Below, in pieces: positions 19,074 to 28,554 of a DNA stretch of 64,000 bases. The translations under genes and the position numbers were made by a program. The notes beneath the pieces are model-generated. The model saw only the letters and a program-made list of their open reading frames with translations. It was not told the origin of the DNA and ran no database searches. The stretch comes from Sulfitobacter maritimus (lineage in GTDB: Bacteria > Pseudomonadota > Alphaproteobacteria > Rhodobacterales > Rhodobacteraceae), in the NCBI RefSeq assembly GCF_013346665.1, contig NZ_JABVBB010000038.1, forward strand, positions 372,001 through 436,000, given 5' to 3'. The stretch's first letter is position 1; every line of letters begins with the position of its first letter.

Positions 19074-20220
19074 AGATTGGCAACAGGGCGGCTTCGGCCT
19101 CTACATCCACTGGCCGTTCTGCGAAGCGAAATGCCCCTACTGCGATTTCAATTCGCATGTAAGCCGTAGCATTGACCAACGCGCTTGGCGCGATGCGTAT
19201 CTGGCTGAACTGCAGCGGGCTGCCGATGAAACTCCGGGCCGATTCCTCAATGCGGTCTTTTTCGGCGGCGGCACCCCCAGTCTGATGGACCCAGATGTGG
19301 TCGCCGATATCATAGCCGCGATCCGCCGACATTGGCCCACCGCAAACGATTTAGAAATCACACTGGAAGCCAACCCCGGCTCTGTCGAGGCCGGTCGTTT
19401 CGCCGCCTATCGGCAAGCCGGGGTCTCCCGCGTCTCTATGGGCATCCAAGCGCTGAACGATGCAGACTTGAAACGCCTCGGCCGCTTGCACTCAGCGCAG
19501 GAAGCTATGACGGCGTTTGAGACTGCGCGAAACGCATTTGATCGTGTTAGCTTCGATCTAATCTATGGGCGACAAGATCAAACGGTTGCAGAGTGGCAAA
19601 GCGAGCTAAAACAAGCTCTATCCCTCGCGATAGACCATATCTCACTCTATCAGTTGACCATCGAACAAGGCACCGCTTTCGGAGATCGCTACGCACGTGG
19701 AAAATTGCGCGGCCTGCCCGATGAAGACCTTGGCGCGGATATGTTCACGGCGACGCAAGACATTTGTAACGACATGGGCATGCCCGCCTATGAGGTCTCA
19801 AACCACGCGCGCGACGGTGCGCAGTCCCGGCATAATCTGATATACTGGCGCTACGGGGACTATATTGGGATCGGCCCCGGTGCGCATGGGCGATTGACGT
19901 TGCAAGACCAGAAATTGGCCACCGTCGCTTACAGTAACCCGCAGCGGTGGCTTGACGGTGTCGCAAAAGGGGATGCCGAAAAACCGCGCGTTGCGATCAG
20001 TCGGAGCGAACAAGCGACGGAGTTCCTGCTTATGGGCCTCCGCCTGAAGGAGGGTATCGACCTGAAACGCTACACCGCCCTAGCCGGGCATGAGATCAAT
20101 CCAGACGCTATAAAGCATCTGGAAAATATCGGAATGGCGACGCAGCGAGACGATAGATTATTCGTTACAGATCAAGGGGTTATGGTCTTGAACGCTGTGA
20201 TCGAAGCTTTGCTACCTTAA
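19066..20220 (+). CDS. hemW: HemW, radical-SAM haem chaperone
   Basis: A 384-residue radical SAM protein related to coproporphyrinogen dehydrogenase HemN. The [4Fe-4S] triad is C19, C23 and C26 in [11 protein letters not shown], with no extra upstream Cys. Together with the FFGGGTPSL motif this favours HemW (haem delivery to respiratory enzymes) over HemN. The start is uncertain: TTG 19066, five bases after AGG, is preferred; TTG 19054 would add four residues. Both overlap rdgB. Its stop overlaps the convergent parB stop within TTAA. Confidence 0.92.
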
Positions 20221-21116
20221 GCGCTTCCAAGCAAACGGCAAAGCTCGTCGAGCTCTTCAAGCGTCTTATAATGCAATGTCACCTTACCCGCTTCTTGCCC
20301 GGGCTTATGGTCAATCACGACCTTCATTCTAAGGTTAGCTGACAGATCGCCTTCAAGCGCCTGAGTATCGGCATCTTTCTCTGAGCGCGCTGAGGGGCGC
20401 TCCTTATTTACCATATTATCGCGCTCGCCAGCCTGGTCTTTCTTGACCAAAGCCTCTGTCGCCCGCACGGACAGACCCCCTTTAACCACCTGCTGTGCAA
20501 GTTTCATCGGATCTTTCGCCGGGATCAATGCCCGCGCGTGGCCAGCGCTTAATTCATTCTGTCGCACCATTTCTTGCACGGGTTCGGGCAGGTTCAAAAG
20601 ACGAAGCAAATTTGCGATATGGCTCCGGCTTTTGCCAAGAGCTTCGGCCATCTTCTCTTGGGTATGGCCAAACTTATCCATCAACTGACGATAGCCCGCA
20701 GCTTCTTCGACCGAGTTCAAATCCGCGCGTTGGATGTTTTCGATGATTGCGACTTCAAGAACTTCGACGTCGGTGAATTCTCGAACGATAACCGGAAGAC
20801 TGTGAACTTTCGCAATCTGCGACGCCCGCCAACGTCTTTCGCCCGCGACGATTTCGAACATCCCGCCGTCCATAGCGCGAACGATAAGCGGCTGAATGAC
20901 GCCTTTCTCGCGGATCGACGCAGCGAGGTCATCTAGATTCTCTTGCTCGAACCGCTTCCGCGGCTGATCGGGATTGGGCTTGATCCGCTCTATGGGAACG
21001 AACTGCTCTGCCGCCGCTGCGCCTTTCGCTGCAACGGTCTCTGTCTCTGCTACATCAGCCATCAGTGCCGACAACCCCCGGCCGAGACCGCGTTTACGCT
21101 CATGTTTATCTGCCAT
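20217..21116 (-). CDS. parB: Chromosome partitioning protein ParB
   Basis: Binds parS, spreads on flanking DNA as a CTP-dependent clamp and works with ParA to segregate origins. The 299-residue protein has the N-terminal CTP-binding domain (PNPDQPRKRFEQ, GVIQPLIVR, GERRWRAS, ENIQRADLN), the HTH region (GHTQEKMAEALGKSRSHIANLLRLL) and a C-terminal dimer domain. The start is ATG 21116, behind AAGGTGG, ten bases after parA. Two perfect parS sites lie 1.4 and 3.3 kb upstream in the same operon. Confidence 0.97.
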   Translation of the reverse strand: MADKHERKRGLGRGLSALMADVAETETVAAKGAAAAEQFVPIERIKPNPDQPRKRFEQENLDDLAASIREKGVIQPLIVRAMDGGMFEIVAGERRWRASQIAKVHSLPVIVREFTDVEVLEVAIIENIQRADLNSVEEAAGYRQLMDKFGHTQEKMAEALGKSRSHIANLLRLLNLPEPVQEMVRQNELSAGHARALIPAKDPMKLAQQVVKGGLSVRATEALVKKDQAGERDNMVNKERPSARSEKDADTQALEGDLSANLRMKVVIDHKPGQEAGKVTLHYKTLEELDELCRLLGSA

Positions 21117-21125
21117 TCTGCCACC

Positions 21126-21935
21126 TTATTCGCCATTGTTTTTTATCAGTTCCGCCGCCAAATCGCGGTAGGCTTGTGCACCCTTAGAGGATGAGTCATA
21201 GCTCAGCACAGGAACCGCAAAACTTGGAGCCTCGCTCACTCTCACATTTCTTGGAATTACGGTCTTAAAGACGAGTTCCCCCAAATTGCTCCGCGCGTCG
21301 CTCTCAACCTGTTGCGACAGATTATTGCGCCGATCGTACATCGTAAGAAGCACACCTTCTATCCGAAGATCCTTGTTGCCGGACTGTCGTACTTCTCTGA
21401 TCGTCAACATAAGTTGTGAAAGCCCTTCGAGCGCGAAAAACTCACTCTGCAACGGCACGAGGACAGACTGGGCTGCGATCATTGCGTTAACCGTTAAGAG
21501 GTTTAGCGACGGCGGGCAATCGATCAGAATATAATCAAGGTCAAAAGCATCCATCTGCGTCTGTCGAAGCGCGTCATGAAGCAAAAAACTCCGCTTCTCG
21601 TTAGAGAACAACTCAATATCGGCCGAACTCAAATCTACTGTGGCGGGAACAATTAATAGCCCCTCAGTACTAGTGGTTTGCACGACATCGTCTAATGCAA
21701 CATCATCCAGTAAGAGGTCATATGTCGTGTATTGCCTGTCATCGACCTCAACGCCAAGTCCAGTAGACGCGTTGCCTTGCGGATCAAGGTCAACCACGAG
21801 AACCCGCTTATCCTGCTCTGCTAAGCCGGCTGCCAGGTTGATCGTCGTGGTCGTCTTTCCCACACCCCCCTTCTGATTGGCGATAGCAATGATTTTTGGC
21901 GCCTTTGGTCGCGATAAATCAGGCACGAATGACAT
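21126..21935 (-). CDS. parA: Chromosome partitioning ATPase ParA
   Basis: Deviant Walker ATPase that moves ParB-parS complexes along the nucleoid. The 269-residue protein has the deviant Walker A KGGVGKTTTTINLAAGLA, then VDLDPQGNASTGLG and ILIDCPPSLNLLTVNAM. The start is ATG 21935, inside the end of rsmG (17-base overlap). It belongs to the leftward run rho-mnmE-mnmG-rsmG-parA-parB. This stretch looks visibly less GC-rich than most of the window. Confidence 0.97.
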   Translation of the reverse strand: MSFVPDLSRPKAPKIIAIANQKGGVGKTTTTINLAAGLAEQDKRVLVVDLDPQGNASTGLGVEVDDRQYTTYDLLLDDVALDDVVQTTSTEGLLIVPATVDLSSADIELFSNEKRSFLLHDALRQTQMDAFDLDYILIDCPPSLNLLTVNAMIAAQSVLVPLQSEFFALEGLSQLMLTIREVRQSGNKDLRIEGVLLTMYDRRNNLSQQVESDARSNLGELVFKTVIPRNVRVSEAPSFAVPVLSYDSSSKGAQAYRDLAAELIKNNGE

Positions 21936-22521
21936 CCTTAATCATCAAAACGGAAGCTTCTGGGTTCGTCTTACTTGGTATTGTATTCAGCGTATAATCC
22001 CACGTTTTGCGTGCTATCTCATCTTCGGTTTTCCAGCTACCGCCCTTTGGGAACAATGCCGTGCCTTTTGGGTGTAGATGACGCTCCGCAAATTCAAGGA
22101 GCTGACTGAGATTGCTCAATGCTCGGGCGGATAGAACGTCAGCGTGCTGAGGCTCCAGATTCTCAATTCGATCATTTAGTACACACCCTTCGATCTCTAA
22201 CTCTCGTAATACAGTATTGAGGAAGGCGCATTTTCTCTGATCGCTCTCGACCAATGCAACGCGGAACCGCTTCTTTTCCATGTTCATAATTGCGACAACT
22301 ATCCCGGGGAAGCCCCCACCGCTGCCGATGTCGAGCCAATACCCCCTAGCATTAACAAGATGGAATACCTGTGCAGAATCAGCGATATGACGGTCCCATA
22401 GGTGTTCCAAGCTTGATTTGGATACCAAATTGATCTTGGGATTCCATTTCCGGACTAGTGCGGCATAGGCTTCCAACCGGTCCATTGTTTCACGTGAAAC
22501 ATCCGATAGGTCCATAGTCAT
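21919..22521 (-). CDS. rsmG: 16S rRNA (guanine527-N7)-methyltransferase RsmG
   Basis: Methylates G527 of 16S rRNA. The 200-residue SAM-dependent enzyme (GidB) has the motif [15 protein letters not shown] near residue 67 and [16 protein letters not shown]. Its start overlaps the mnmG stop as ATGA. Codons for VSRET near the N-terminus contain a perfect parS palindrome (22486-22501), so the protein and the centromere site share sequence, a common alphaproteobacterial arrangement. Confidence 0.96.
22486..22501. other. parS centromere site 1 (within rsmG)
   Basis: The 16-base palindrome TGTTTCACGTGAAACA matches the universal ParB-binding consensus exactly. It lies in codons 7-12 of rsmG, 1.4 kb upstream of parB and about 5.1 kb from the predicted oriC. 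Confidence 0.93.
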
Positions 22522-24374
22522 GCGCTTTTCTTTCCCCGACGAAGCCAGGCAAGGATTAGGGTCAGGGCGGCTGGTGTCATCCCTTCAACACGCGCCGCAT
22601 TAGCGATCGAGTTCGGCTGAGCCTTCTGCAACTTTAGCTTCAATTCGTTTGAAAGCCCGGAAAGAGTGGCGTAATCGAAATCTGTCGGGATTTTGATGGC
22701 CTCGTCGTGTTGAAGGGCGAGAATGTCTTTCTTTTGTCGTTCGATATAGGTCGCATAGAGAGCATCCCTCTCGATCTGTTCCTGTATCTCTGTCGAGAAT
22801 TCGGCCAGATCAGACCTAAGCGCTATAAGCTGATGAAACTTCACATTCGGAAAGGACAATACCTGAAATGCATTCCGTTTCGATCCATCTTGATTAACCT
22901 CGATACCAGCATCACGAAGTTGTGACGGGGTATAAGTGGTCTCAGACAACCTCTTTCGCACGTCTTTAAGAGCTTCCGATTTAACTTCAAAAAGGTGCCG
23001 GCGGGTGTCGGAGCAACATCCCAGGCGAATGGCCCACGGCGTCAGGCGTTGATCAGCGTTGTCTGCACGAAGAGATAACCGGAATTCTGCGCGGGAGGTA
23101 AACATGCGATAGGGCTCCGTCACCCCGCGCGTGGTTAGGTCATCAATCATGACGCCAATGTAGCTATCCGACCGGCGGAATAAAACTGGTTCCGCCCCTT
23201 GACTACTAAGCGCCGCATTCAGTCCAGCCACGAGCCCCTGAGCCGCAGCTTCTTCATAGCCGGTAGTTCCGTTGATCTGGCCCGCCAAATACAAGTCATC
23301 GACATTCTTTACGGCCAAGGTAGCATCCAACGCGCGCGGGTCGATATAATCATACTCAATGGCGTAGCCGGGCTGAAGGATTACAGCATTTTCCAATCCC
23401 CGCATCGTGCGGACATATTTTTCCTGAACATCCTCAGGCAAAGATGTCGAAATGCCATTCGGATAAACAGTGAAATCATCAACGCCTTCGGGTTCAAGGA
23501 AAACCTGATGAGACTCTTTCTCCGCGAAACGCACGACTTTGTCTTCGATTGACGGACAATACCGAGGCCCCACACCATCAATATGGCCGCCGTACATAGC
23601 AGACCGCTCCAGGTTTTCTCGAATGATTGCGTGGGTTTTTGTATTCGTGTGCGTGATTCCGCAGGAGACTTGCTTCGCAGACGTTCCGTTAGACAGGAAT
23701 GAGAACAAGACCGGCTCATCGTCGCCTGGTTGCGCGTCTAAAATGTCCCAATTTATCGTGCGACCGTCTAGCCGCGGAGGCGTTCCAGTTTTTAGTCGCC
23801 CCATGGGGAGGTTAAAGGAATCGACGCGTTCGGCCAAGCGGACTGAAGCCTTATCCCCCATCCGCCCACCAGAGCGCGATACGTCACCAATGTGAATGAC
23901 GCCGCGGAGAAATGTACCTGTCGTAAGAACAACGCTTTTTGAAGATAGTTCGCTGCCATCAGCAAATTGTACGCCGCATACCGCGGTGCCGTCCATACGG
24001 AAATCAACAACCTCTCCTTCCACTATGGTGAGGTTTTCGGTGTTTTCAATTTCTTCCAGCATTGTCTGCTGATAGATTTTCCTATCCGCTTGCGCGCGTG
24101 GCCCTTGAACGGCAGGTCCCTTACGGCGGTTAAGAAGGCGGAACTGTATACCGGCTCTGTCCGCTACACGCCCCATAAGGCCATCCATTGCATCGATCTC
24201 TCGAACGAGATGACCCTTTCCCAAACCGCCGATAGCGGGGTTACACGACATGACGCCGATTCCGCTGCGGGACATGGTAACCAATGCAGTGTTCGCGCCA
24301 AGCCGCGCCGCAGCGTGTGCAGCCTCGGTTCCCGCATGACCTCCGCCAATAACGATGACATCAAAATGTTTCAC
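22518..24374 (-). CDS. mnmG: tRNA uridine-34 carboxymethylaminomethyl synthesis enzyme MnmG
   Basis: FAD enzyme that, with MnmE, makes (c)mnm5U at the wobble position. The 618-residue protein has [16 protein letters not shown] at its N-terminus and [18 protein letters not shown] and C-terminal tRNA/MnmE-binding regions; length is normal. The best start is GTG 24374 (VKHFDV), eight bases after GGAG. GTG 24383 is too close to that ribosome site. A parS palindrome (24367-24382) covers the chosen start codon. It lies just downstream of mnmE and overlaps rsmG. Confidence 0.95.
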
Positions 24375-24382
24375 GTGAAACA
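24367..24382. other. parS centromere site 2 (over the mnmG start codon)
   Basis: A second exact TGTTTCACGTGAAACA, 1.88 kb from the first. It sits in the mnmE-mnmG junction, between the GGAG ribosome site and the first mnmG codons, and includes the GTG start. Confidence 0.93.
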
Positions 24383-27098: not shown

Positions 27099-27548
27099 TT
27101 AGAATTTCACCACGACTGAGAAGACGATCACGATCATCAAAAGCGTCGGCACCTCGTTCAAAAGGCGAAACTGGCGACCTGTCACCGTGCTCTCGCCGCT
27201 TTCGACCGATTTTACCTGTTTTTTAAGCCAAATATGGAAAACCGTCATGGCGATCACGCTGGCCCCTTTGGTCCAAGGCCAGATCATCGTCCAGTCCACG
27301 ATTCCGGGCGTCAGAACGAGCGCGAGGCCAAACACCCAGGTCGCCATCATCGCGGGCCGCATGATGAACTGAGCGAGCTTATATTCCATCATCGAAAAAG
27401 TGTCATGCATCGGGCCGCTGGTACCAGCCTGCTCCACATGATGCACGAAGAGCCGCGGCAGATAGAAGAGCGCGGCCATCCAACTGATGACGGACACGAT
27501 ATGGAGCGCTTTGATCCATGGGTAAGCATAGCTGAGAAGGTCAAACAT
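27099..27548 (-). CDS. hemJ: Protoporphyrinogen IX oxidase HemJ
   Basis: Membrane enzyme of late haem synthesis (UPF0093 family). The 149-residue protein is mostly four hydrophobic helices, with the conserved His in KALHIVSVISWMAALFYLPRLFVHH and a C-terminal LLNEVPTLLMIVIV helix. It is the first leftward gene next to the predicted oriC. HemJ is the usual enzyme in Rhodobacterales, which lack HemG. Confidence 0.92.
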   Translation of the reverse strand: MFDLLSYAYPWIKALHIVSVISWMAALFYLPRLFVHHVEQAGTSGPMHDTFSMMEYKLAQFIMRPAMMATWVFGLALVLTPGIVDWTMIWPWTKGASVIAMTVFHIWLKKQVKSVESGESTVTGRQFRLLNEVPTLLMIVIVFSVVVKF

Positions 27549-27954
27549 GGGGAAGGCTCCGGTGTGCGTGCTTCTTTCTTAATAAATAAGAAAAGAGAAA
27601 AGATGTAGTTGATTGTAGGGCGCCAGATTCCTGTGGATTAATGATTTATACCGCCGCTTATCAACAGGTGAACAAACTTCCCGACGCCCTGTGGAAAAAA
27701 CGGCTTCGATTCGCTAATATTCAATTTTCTCAATATCTTGCCAGCGTATTTTCCGGGGGACAAAATGTATCAAAGCGGGGATAACCAGTGAAGTGCGGTG
27801 GTTATACGCACAAGCGGCTTATCCCTATCCATGGGGGTGGGAATCGGCGACAAAACTCGCGACTCGGGGCGAGATTTGCGGCCTTGTGCTGTCAACGTTT
27901 ATCTCGCAGAACAAACCCTCAGGATTTGCGCCAGTTCACCACAGGGTTATCCAC
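27549..27954. other. oriC: Predicted chromosomal replication origin (oriC)
   Basis: A 406-base gene-free stretch between divergent hemJ and maf. DnaA boxes: TTATCCACA exact (27947-27955), and three one-mismatch boxes, TAATCCACA (27632-27640, minus), TTATCAACA (27658-27666) and TTTTCCACA (27690-27698, minus). Two-mismatch boxes lie at 27777-27785, 27802-27810 and 27819-27827. Two AT-rich tracts (27570-27615 and 27705-27740) could be the unwinding element. Four GANTC (CcrM) sites lie at 27626, 27708, 27841 and 27861. The flanking genes diverge from it, parS sites and parAB lie nearby, and this hemJ/maf neighbourhood is where alphaproteobacterial origins are expected. dnaA is not in the window. 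Confidence 0.85.
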
Positions 27955-27955
27955 A
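27947..27955 (+). promoter_or_regulatory. Consensus DnaA box touching the maf start codon
   Basis: The only exact TTATCCACA in the origin region. Its last base is the A of the maf ATG, so DnaA bound here would cover the translation start region and any promoter just upstream. Confidence 0.7.
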
Positions 27956-28554
27956 TGCCGCAAAAATTCGTCCTCGCCTCCGGCTCGGAGATCCGTGCGC
28001 AGCTCTTGCAACAGGCTGCGATTGCGCATGAGGTGATCCCCGCACGCATTGACGAAGAGATGATCACCGCCGCCCTGCGCAGTGAGGCGGCGAAGCCGCG
28101 TGATATTGCCGATACATTGGCCGAGATGAAGGCGCGGAAGGTGAGCGAGAAGCTCCCCGGTGCTTTGGTTTTGGGCTGCGATCAGGTGTTGGAGCATCGT
28201 GGGGAGATGCTGCATAAGCCTGCGAACCGAAATGAGGCCATCGCGCAACTGCATTTGTTGCGCGGGGACCGCCATTCGCTGCTCTCTGCCGCAGTGCTTT
28301 ACGAAGATGGCAAACCGCTGTGGCGGCATGTCGGTCAGGTGCGCCTTCGAATGCGCGAAGCGAGTGATGCCTATATCGCAGACTATGTTGAGCGAAACTG
28401 GGAGAGCATCCGCCACGCCGTGGGCTGCTATAAGCTTGAGGAAGAAGGCGTGCGGCTGTTCAGCCAGATCGAAGGGGATTACTTTCACGTCCTCGGTATG
28501 CCATTTCTTGAACTGCTTAACTATCTGACGCTGCGCGGAGACCTGCCGACATGA
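27955..28554 (+). CDS. maf: Maf family nucleotide pyrophosphatase
   Basis: Cleaves modified or non-canonical nucleoside triphosphates. The 199-residue protein has the Maf N-terminus FVLASGSEIRAQLL and the DIADTLAEMKARKV, GCDQVLEHRG and HAVGCYKLEEEGVRLFSQIEGDYFHVLGMP segments, placing it near the YceF branch. The start is ATG 27955. Longer in-frame readings would run through the DnaA boxes. AGGG lies nine bases upstream. It overlaps aroE as ATGA and heads the rightward origin arm. Confidence 0.92.
   Translation: MPQKFVLASGSEIRAQLLQQAAIAHEVIPARIDEEMITAALRSEAAKPRDIADTLAEMKARKVSEKLPGALVLGCDQVLEHRGEMLHKPANRNEAIAQLHLLRGDRHSLLSAAVLYEDGKPLWRHVGQVRLRMREASDAYIADYVERNWESIRHAVGCYKLEEEGVRLFSQIEGDYFHVLGMPFLELLNYLTLRGDLPT

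Follow-up and report, generated by a model that had tools for sequence, protein, structure and literature searches.

The gap between hemJ and maf, in the 64-kb window analysed here (the whole stretch of DNA from C32:372001 to C32:436000), is almost certainly the chromosomal replication origin, as a first-pass annotation had considered probable, and this assignment is supported by a cluster of DnaA boxes, by the turn of the GC skew of contig C32 and by the conservation of the boxes in relatives. Considered as a whole, the region is very probably best explained as an origin with an unwinding module at its hemJ edge. The origin call is well supported but expected. Less expected is an unwinding repeat that, in the relatives examined, is strongly conserved at the published geometry yet breaks the middle-adenine rule, together with a DnaA in which the adenine-reading residue is changed too, and the gap is described here as an ordinary, well-supported origin with a candidate variant unwinding element.

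For comparison, loci were taken from the best 80 out of a set of at least 564 HemJ relatives, almost all of which belong to the Rhodobacteraceae judging from the record titles; a divergent maf adjoins hemJ in 67 of the 80, giving 68 maf-bearing regions with the window included, in which the gap measures 385-452 nt (median 407). Both this set and the DnaA set used below are the best rows of longer lists, and both are therefore sets of close kin. The features of the window are as follows.

20217..21116, minus strand: parB (PF02195, 2.4e-35; TIGR00180, 5.5e-58)
21126..21935, minus strand: parA, a ParA-type ATPase (PF13614, 8.8e-62; PF01656, 3e-30)
22486..22501: parS, perfect TGTTTCACGTGAAACA
24367..24382: parS, perfect TGTTTCACGTGAAACA
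27099..27548, minus strand: hemJ (PF03653, 8.5e-55; TIGR00701, 1.6e-38, 132 bits, below its cut-off of 138)
27549..27954: oriC, in the hemJ-maf gap; highest DnaA-box density of the contig, skew minimum 112 bp off
27571..27602: AT-rich tract, proposed duplex-unwinding element; 27575-27614 is 80% AT; 1 of 25 positions variable
27600..27618, plus strand: DnaA-trio-like block, 3'->5' GAT GTT (A) GTT GAT GTA GAA; 0 of 20 positions variable
27619..27631: 13-nt spacer from the first trio to box B1; box at 13 nt in 40 of 63 anchored regions
27632..27640, minus strand: box B1, TAATCCACA; at most 2 mismatches in 52/68 regions, at most 1 in 39/68, perfect in 0/68; TAATCCACA itself in 29/68
27658..27666, plus strand: box B2, TTATCAACA; at most 2 mismatches in 55/68
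27690..27698, minus strand: box B3, TTTTCCACA; lineage-specific, box in 6/68
27776..27784, minus strand: degenerate central box (2 mismatches); box with at most 2 mismatches in 34/68
27802..27810, plus strand: degenerate central box (2 mismatches); 27/68
27819..27827, plus strand: degenerate central box (2 mismatches); 15/68
27935..27943, plus strand: weak box R2 (2 mismatches), in tandem with R1; 19/68
27947..27955, plus strand: perfect box R1, TTATCCACA, overlapping the maf start codon; at most 1 mismatch in 50/68, perfect in 26/68
27955..28554, plus strand: maf (PF02545, 2.3e-43; TIGR00172 above its cut-off)

The gap had been described as gene-free from 27549 to 27955. This holds for its content, bounded by the HemJ start at 27548 (reading leftwards) and by the Maf start, but not for its last base, since the final A of the perfect box is the first A of the maf ATG and position 27955 therefore lies one base inside maf. 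Of the 67 loci that have a Maf match, 58 show homology extending to residue 1 of Maf, at 27955. A longer, GTG-started maf reading frame (27793-28554) would add 54 residues to Maf inside the origin; a start as far upstream as 27793 is possible in only 9 of the 68 regions, so that automatic annotation may err here, and an in-frame stop occurs within 20 codons upstream of maf in 28 of the 68.

The four principal boxes reported at first pass, an exact TTATCCACA at 27947 and one-mismatch boxes at 27632 (minus), 27658 (plus) and 27690 (minus), were all recovered. Boxes with at most one mismatch number 12 in the whole window against a shuffle mean of 6.9, and 7 of 100 shuffles attain 12; given that this number is just mildly high, it is the clustering that carries weight. 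Clustering was tested in C32 alone, one-mismatch boxes numbering 387 altogether, and the 773 kb of this contig hold 79 boxes with at most one mismatch, or 0.042 per 407 nt. The densest 407-nt window of C32 starts at C32:399632 and holds 4 boxes, the next densest that does not overlap it holds 2, and the gap is the sole dense DnaA-box cluster of the contig. The box positions 27632, 27658 and 27947 are kept among the relatives examined, B1 being perfect in none of the 68 regions and yet kept, as though a moderate site were retained on purpose. The asymmetric spacing remarked on earlier, with most boxes on the hemJ side, is present in the window; it is in part particular to this lineage, as the box at 27690 is lineage-specific and the central cluster (27764-27835), whose best-kept sites are boxed in 27 to 34 of the 68 regions, has degenerated here, so that the asymmetry reflects partly a local loss.

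A skew inflection elsewhere would have told against the origin. With the sequence of C32 covered whole save 50 undetermined bases, the cumulative GC-skew minimum was found at C32:399437 (position 27437 of the window), 112 bp to the left of the gap, and the best single change point at 399 kb (381-429 kb being its 95% range by block bootstrap). The skew was followed in 5 of the 38 contigs, namely C32 whole, C28 (737 kb) in 17 samples and C21, C26 and C30 in one 20-kb sample each; C28 is positive in 16 of its 17 samples and hence has no turning point, and single samples of the other three say little. A second test used 60 evenly spaced 20-kb samples of the complete chromosome of Pseudooceanicola spongiae, where the orthologous gap is at 3,213,608-3,214,041. 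The best two-segment fit turns there at sample 3,128,810, one step to the left of the sample that holds the gap, and the sampled cumulative minimum is at sample 3,056,047, two steps to its left; inside the gap-holding sample itself the minimum is at 3,213,991, within the gap.

The neighbourhood also contains a partition system, as had been noted for the surrounding 7 kb or so: parA, parB and two perfect parS sites lie at distances of about 3 to 7 kb. The sites at 22486 and 24367 are identified by what we take to be the parS consensus, TGTTTCACGTGAAACA. No NCBIfam ParA model is above its cut-off among the 25 matches listed for parA, and the name of this gene therefore rests also on the adjoining parB and on parS.

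Among relatives, no 400-nt window of the locus exceeds the gap in number of boxes in 78 of 81 regions (the window and 80 loci), the exceptions being L044 (at a contig end), L053 and L079; on average a gap contains 3.58 boxes, whereas a 400-nt window of these loci contains 0.126. In this count the 13 regions without a Maf match, of which 12 are titled Paracoccus and the other is L044, are represented by 520 nt upstream of hemJ (99 nt for L044, where the contig ends), which is longer than the windows compared; these 13 are left out of the alignment and of box occupancy, leaving 68 rows, and L044 is also left out of the module analysis. In eight of the Paracoccus loci (L037, L043, L049, L052, L067, L068, L075 and L077) aroE is the next recognised gene and no maf relative was found; in four further Paracoccus loci neither maf nor aroE was found on that side of the origin. 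At closer range, BLASTN of the gap across the genus found it in 30 of 62 genomes, and the window was aligned with the nine genus relatives matched over most of the gap. Across these 10 genomes, 1 of 36 box positions is variable against 96 of 371 others (Fisher p = 7.6e-4), so that the boxes are, as anticipated for an origin, conserved in close relatives; in the same genomes the trio block (27600-27619) has 0 of 20 positions variable and the AT-rich tract (27575-27599) 1 of 25.

The base composition likewise agrees with the first-pass description. AT content is 51.7% in the gap and 40% in the contig, and of the two AT-rich tracts claimed one is established by count, 27575-27614 being 80% AT, a level attained by 6 of 77,335 40-nt windows of the contig (10-nt steps), and the other, near 27714-27735, is visible by eye. 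The GANTC sites are also present, four (27626, 27708, 27841 and 27861) against 0.38 expected from the contig density, or about ten times that density. Over the 68 gaps the mean is 1.74 sites, any one position is common to at most 8 of the 68 and 23 have none; GANTC is therefore no fixed part of the origin and was rejected as a positioned element. It may be observed separately that one GANTC of the window falls inside the 13-nt spacer between box and trios. Sites for CtrA (TTAA-N7-TTAA) and IHF, which are typical of Caulobacter and were sought by simple consensus only, gave 7 and 8 matches in total in the 68 gaps, and were set aside as conserved parts given that they are nearly absent.

The hemJ edge of the gap, 27571-27640, has a layout similar to that of the basal unwinding system (BUS) of Bacillus subtilis, with a DnaA box, a 13-nt spacer, six triplets and an AT-rich tract, and the identification of this stretch as an unwinding module, with its polarity towards hemJ, is judged probable by analogy with that system. 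Nearly every region printed shows the same order towards hemJ, namely a box, an interval of about 13 nt, CCCTAC or something close to it, the triplets, and then a CT-rich run ahead of an AT-rich tract; exact CCCTAC occurs in 48 of 81 regions. In the 63 regions that can be anchored on CTAC, the window included, a box lies at exactly 13 nt in 40 and at 4 nt in 15, and there is none in 6; given that 17 of the 80 modules lack an exact CTAC anchor and are excluded, this register count favours a canonical first trio. In the window the first trio is 3'-GAT-5', 13 nt from B1, which fits the published spacer of 10-13 nt, although the anchor itself imposes GAT, and the triplets are interrupted by one extra base. 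The commonest BUS spacer is 13 nt and the commonest layout has tandem boxes, according to the survey in PMC8287927. As in B. subtilis, a box or tandem boxes are followed at 13 or 4 nt by GC-rich bases and six triplets starting from 3'-GAT-5', and after the triplets, with the same polarity, by an AT-rich tract. The difference lies in the middle base, which is A throughout in the B. subtilis trios and here is mostly T in trios 2-5 and G or A in trio 6.

The origins of Caulobacter and Rickettsia lie in the gap between hemE and COG1806 (PMC1914354), and the gap described here appears, from its layout and neighbourhood, to correspond to that origin with both flanking genes replaced. It shares with the origins of Caulobacter crescentus and Rickettsia prowazekii a length of about 400 bp (404 bp in Caulobacter; PMC1914354), a corresponding neighbourhood, DnaA boxes and richness in AT, and differs from them in its flanks, hemJ and maf, and in lacking conserved consensus sites for CtrA and IHF. 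The high-affinity Caulobacter box given in PMC4285127, TGATCCACA, departs from the consensus at position 2, a departure common to B1. In the present genome hemE is at C32:449528-450553, about 50 kb from the gap, and COG1806, which was found in 133 of 192 sampled alphaproteobacterial genomes, was looked for and not found. Twenty class genomes were picked by hand, not at random, from the higher-scoring of the 133; in 17 of them the 700 nt upstream of COG1806 reach hemE, and in many of the 20 regions boxes and an AT-rich tract are, by eye, arranged alike. Since hemE and COG1806 do not flank the gap and the correspondence is one of layout and neighbourhood, the gap would be a derived form and no strict member of that family, and since the layout is kept though both flanks have been replaced, the module seems to be part of the origin and not of hemJ. 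The origin has outlived both flanking genes. The 101 Rhodobacteraceae origins predicted by Ori-Finder (PMC6699656) are of the same family and were placed by skew, DnaA boxes and nearness to parAB; the portions of that report describing them give neither flanking genes nor an unwinding element, unlike the description offered here.

The triplets are phased. In the 130 nt on the hemJ side the longest run lacking G has a median length of 44 nt, and elsewhere in the gap the longest run lacking G, or lacking C, has one of 22 nt; the first 21 nt of the hemJ-side run show a 3-nt periodicity of C (z 13.5; G on the trio strand), A (6.8) and T (4.2); over the next 21 nt the periodicity is gone for C (z -0.4) and A (-1.4), with T at 2.0. 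C-periodicity (z 4.5) was also found over the 13 of 20 class segments whose G-free run is 24 nt or longer. The periodicity analysis as a whole excludes L005, 7 of 79 runs that are short and the 7 of 20 class segments below 24 nt. With the register set by the first trio, the family consensus on the plus strand, read 3'->5', is GAT GTT TTA GTA GTA GGA, the commonest middle base being T in trios 2-5 and G or A in trio 6. With a one-base shift allowed, 50 distinct modules gave z 12.1 for G at the first position, 7.2 for T at the middle and 1.6 for A at the middle, and 49 mutually dissimilar gaps gave 11.8, 7.3 and 2.1; as the shuffles keep composition only and the sequences are related, these z-scores are upper limits and it is their order that is the point.

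The published rule was applied in a simplified form of the published program, which seeks a box with at most 2 mismatches and, at up to 16 nt, at least three trios of the form 3'-NAN-5'. No such element was found in the window, on either strand, anywhere in the gap. Towards hemJ it was found in 22 of 81 regions against 92 of 1620 shuffles in which the boxes are destroyed too, and over the whole gap and both strands in 63 of 81 (34 towards hemJ, 49 towards maf) against 182 of 810 full shuffles. When the boxes were kept and the next 25 nt shuffled, however, the pattern stood at 120 of 551 boxes against 120.2 expected, and since the excess vanishes once real boxes are kept, the excess over full shuffles stems from the boxes: the published middle-A trio rule carries no signal beside the boxes of these gaps. 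A generic scan for ANC triplets, positive in 72 of 81 regions, was rejected as evidence, as 288 of 1620 shuffles attain its threshold and the scan imposes A and C. In the literature listings searched no alphaproteobacterial trio variant was found, the one paper listed that names DnaA-trios together with Alphaproteobacteria and Caulobacter being, from its title, on epsilonproteobacteria; predicted elements for the species considered here may be given in the supplementary tables of the BUS survey and in DoriC.

The middle base is of interest with regard to the DnaA residues that read it. In B. subtilis DnaA captures the first and the second base of each trio and the third faces away, the G being held by Arg202 and Glu228 and the A by Asn187 (with Glu183), and exchange of this A for T slows opening whereas exchange for C does not, according to the account in PMC10721633. 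Aligned to the DnaA chain of 8btg, which carries the same numbering, the DnaA of the present genome has Lys for Arg202, keeps Glu228 and has Tyr for Asn187. The chain in 8btg is taken by us to be that of B. subtilis, and those in 2z4r and 1l8q, which carry Asn and Gln at the place of residue 187 in the alignment, to be those of Thermotoga maritima and Aquifex aeolicus. Tyr187, Lys202 and Glu228 are found in all 119 readable homologues of the best 120 of 8000 DnaA candidates, the other one being outside the count as the anchor pattern was unmatched. In the 20 picked class genomes residue 187 is Tyr in 15, Phe in 3 and Asn in 2, so that the Asn of B. subtilis is replaced by Tyr or Phe in 18 of them, as it is by Tyr here; of the two with Asn187, one (G169, L258) has by eye three canonical trios in a row and the other (G119, L267) none such. 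The pocket for G thus appears to be kept in kind and the contact with A to be lost, as the triplets themselves suggest, although this is a correlation across one lineage.

Carried over from the mechanism in B. subtilis to the location, boxes, spacing and conservation observed here, binding, unwinding and firing would proceed as follows. DnaA would bind the boxes across the gap, with the outward-facing B1 (27632-27640) at the hemJ edge as the launching site, and from B1 DnaA-ATP would polymerise over the 13-nt spacer onto the plus strand and capture the six triplets from 27618 down to 27600. This capture would prise open the adjoining AT-rich tract, 27571-27602, at which the helicase would then be loaded. 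The box at the maf start, as the other conserved pole, probably holds the DnaA complex at its far end.

Three other explanations were weighed. That replication starts at another place, such as dnaA, with the gap as a DnaA-regulated promoter region, is scarcely credible: in many bacteria oriC does lie at dnaA, and a perfect box over the maf start is what a DnaA-repressed promoter might have, but the skew turns at the gap and not at the one full-length, clear dnaA match (TIGR00362; C32:318 kb, 82 kb from the gap), a second box cluster is absent from the contig, and the neighbourhood matches that of the Caulobacter origin. It is considerably less far-fetched, although still improbable, that the gap is oriC and its conserved hemJ-side block is the promoter or leader of hemJ. 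Exact CCCTAC indeed lies 51-84 nt upstream of hemJ in 47 of 48 regions (in L078 the exact match is elsewhere) and the block is CT-rich on the coding strand of hemJ; however, a similar arrangement of box, spacer, triplets and AT-rich tract is seen by eye in many of the 20 COG1806-type regions (the fixed trio-like pattern, searched for automatically, in only 3), the C-periodicity recurs in 13 of these 20, where the neighbour is hemE (17/20) and not hemJ, and the 13-nt and 4-nt spacings fit the published unwinding geometry.

The remaining alternative concerns only how the module is read, and is a serious if rather doubtful possibility: the trios may be ordinary ones in a 3'-T-A-G-5' register, with the middle A kept and DnaA reading nothing new. 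In the register set by the phase of C the commonest triplet is ATC (136), which is 3'-TAG-5' with a middle A, and in T. maritima tandem TAG trinucleotides (5'->3') are the essential motif of oriC, the eTrio being essential for single-strand binding as presented in PMC10316083. The repetition of trinucleotides is common to both, but the repeat here, written 5'->3', is GAT (ATG or TTG in the G-first register) and not TAG, and the DnaA boxes differ. Moreover, per-column information ranks the middle base of the TAG register lowest, alone or in a tie, and 55 of 195 triplets have a base other than A there, in a scan that imposes the outer A and C; the first trio, which the anchor imposes, and the 13-nt spacer set a register with G first and T in the middle; and the Asn that reads A is absent from DnaA. 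Reading the triplets as 3'-G-T/A-N-5', not 3'-G-A-N-5', with Tyr in place of Asn187, is favoured tentatively, as a plausible account somewhat short of an even chance. It is with the same reserve that Alphaproteobacteria might be said to open their origin by a diverged DnaA-trio code, anchored on the captured guanine (3'-G-T/A-N-5'), in which, in most of the class, the aromatic residue at 187 would stack on the second base instead of hydrogen-bonding with it. If repeat and pocket had changed jointly, the chance-level occurrence of the published motif beside the boxes would be accounted for. Were the two changes linked, the trio code would not be universal but would co-evolve with DnaA, origin-finding software should seek G-phased triplets in Alphaproteobacteria, and an experiment swapping a single residue and a single base would become possible.

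Besides dnaA there is a weak match to a DnaA domain (6.7e-7) at G000:C22:3226-3513, with an in-frame TAG, perhaps a broken DnaA-like ATPase. At the other edge of the gap, R1 is the box most often perfect among the window's four and sits, by eye, between a possible ribosome-binding AGGG and the maf ATG. In addition to its place in the origin the maf-start box may also gate maf, and DnaA could repress maf via R1.
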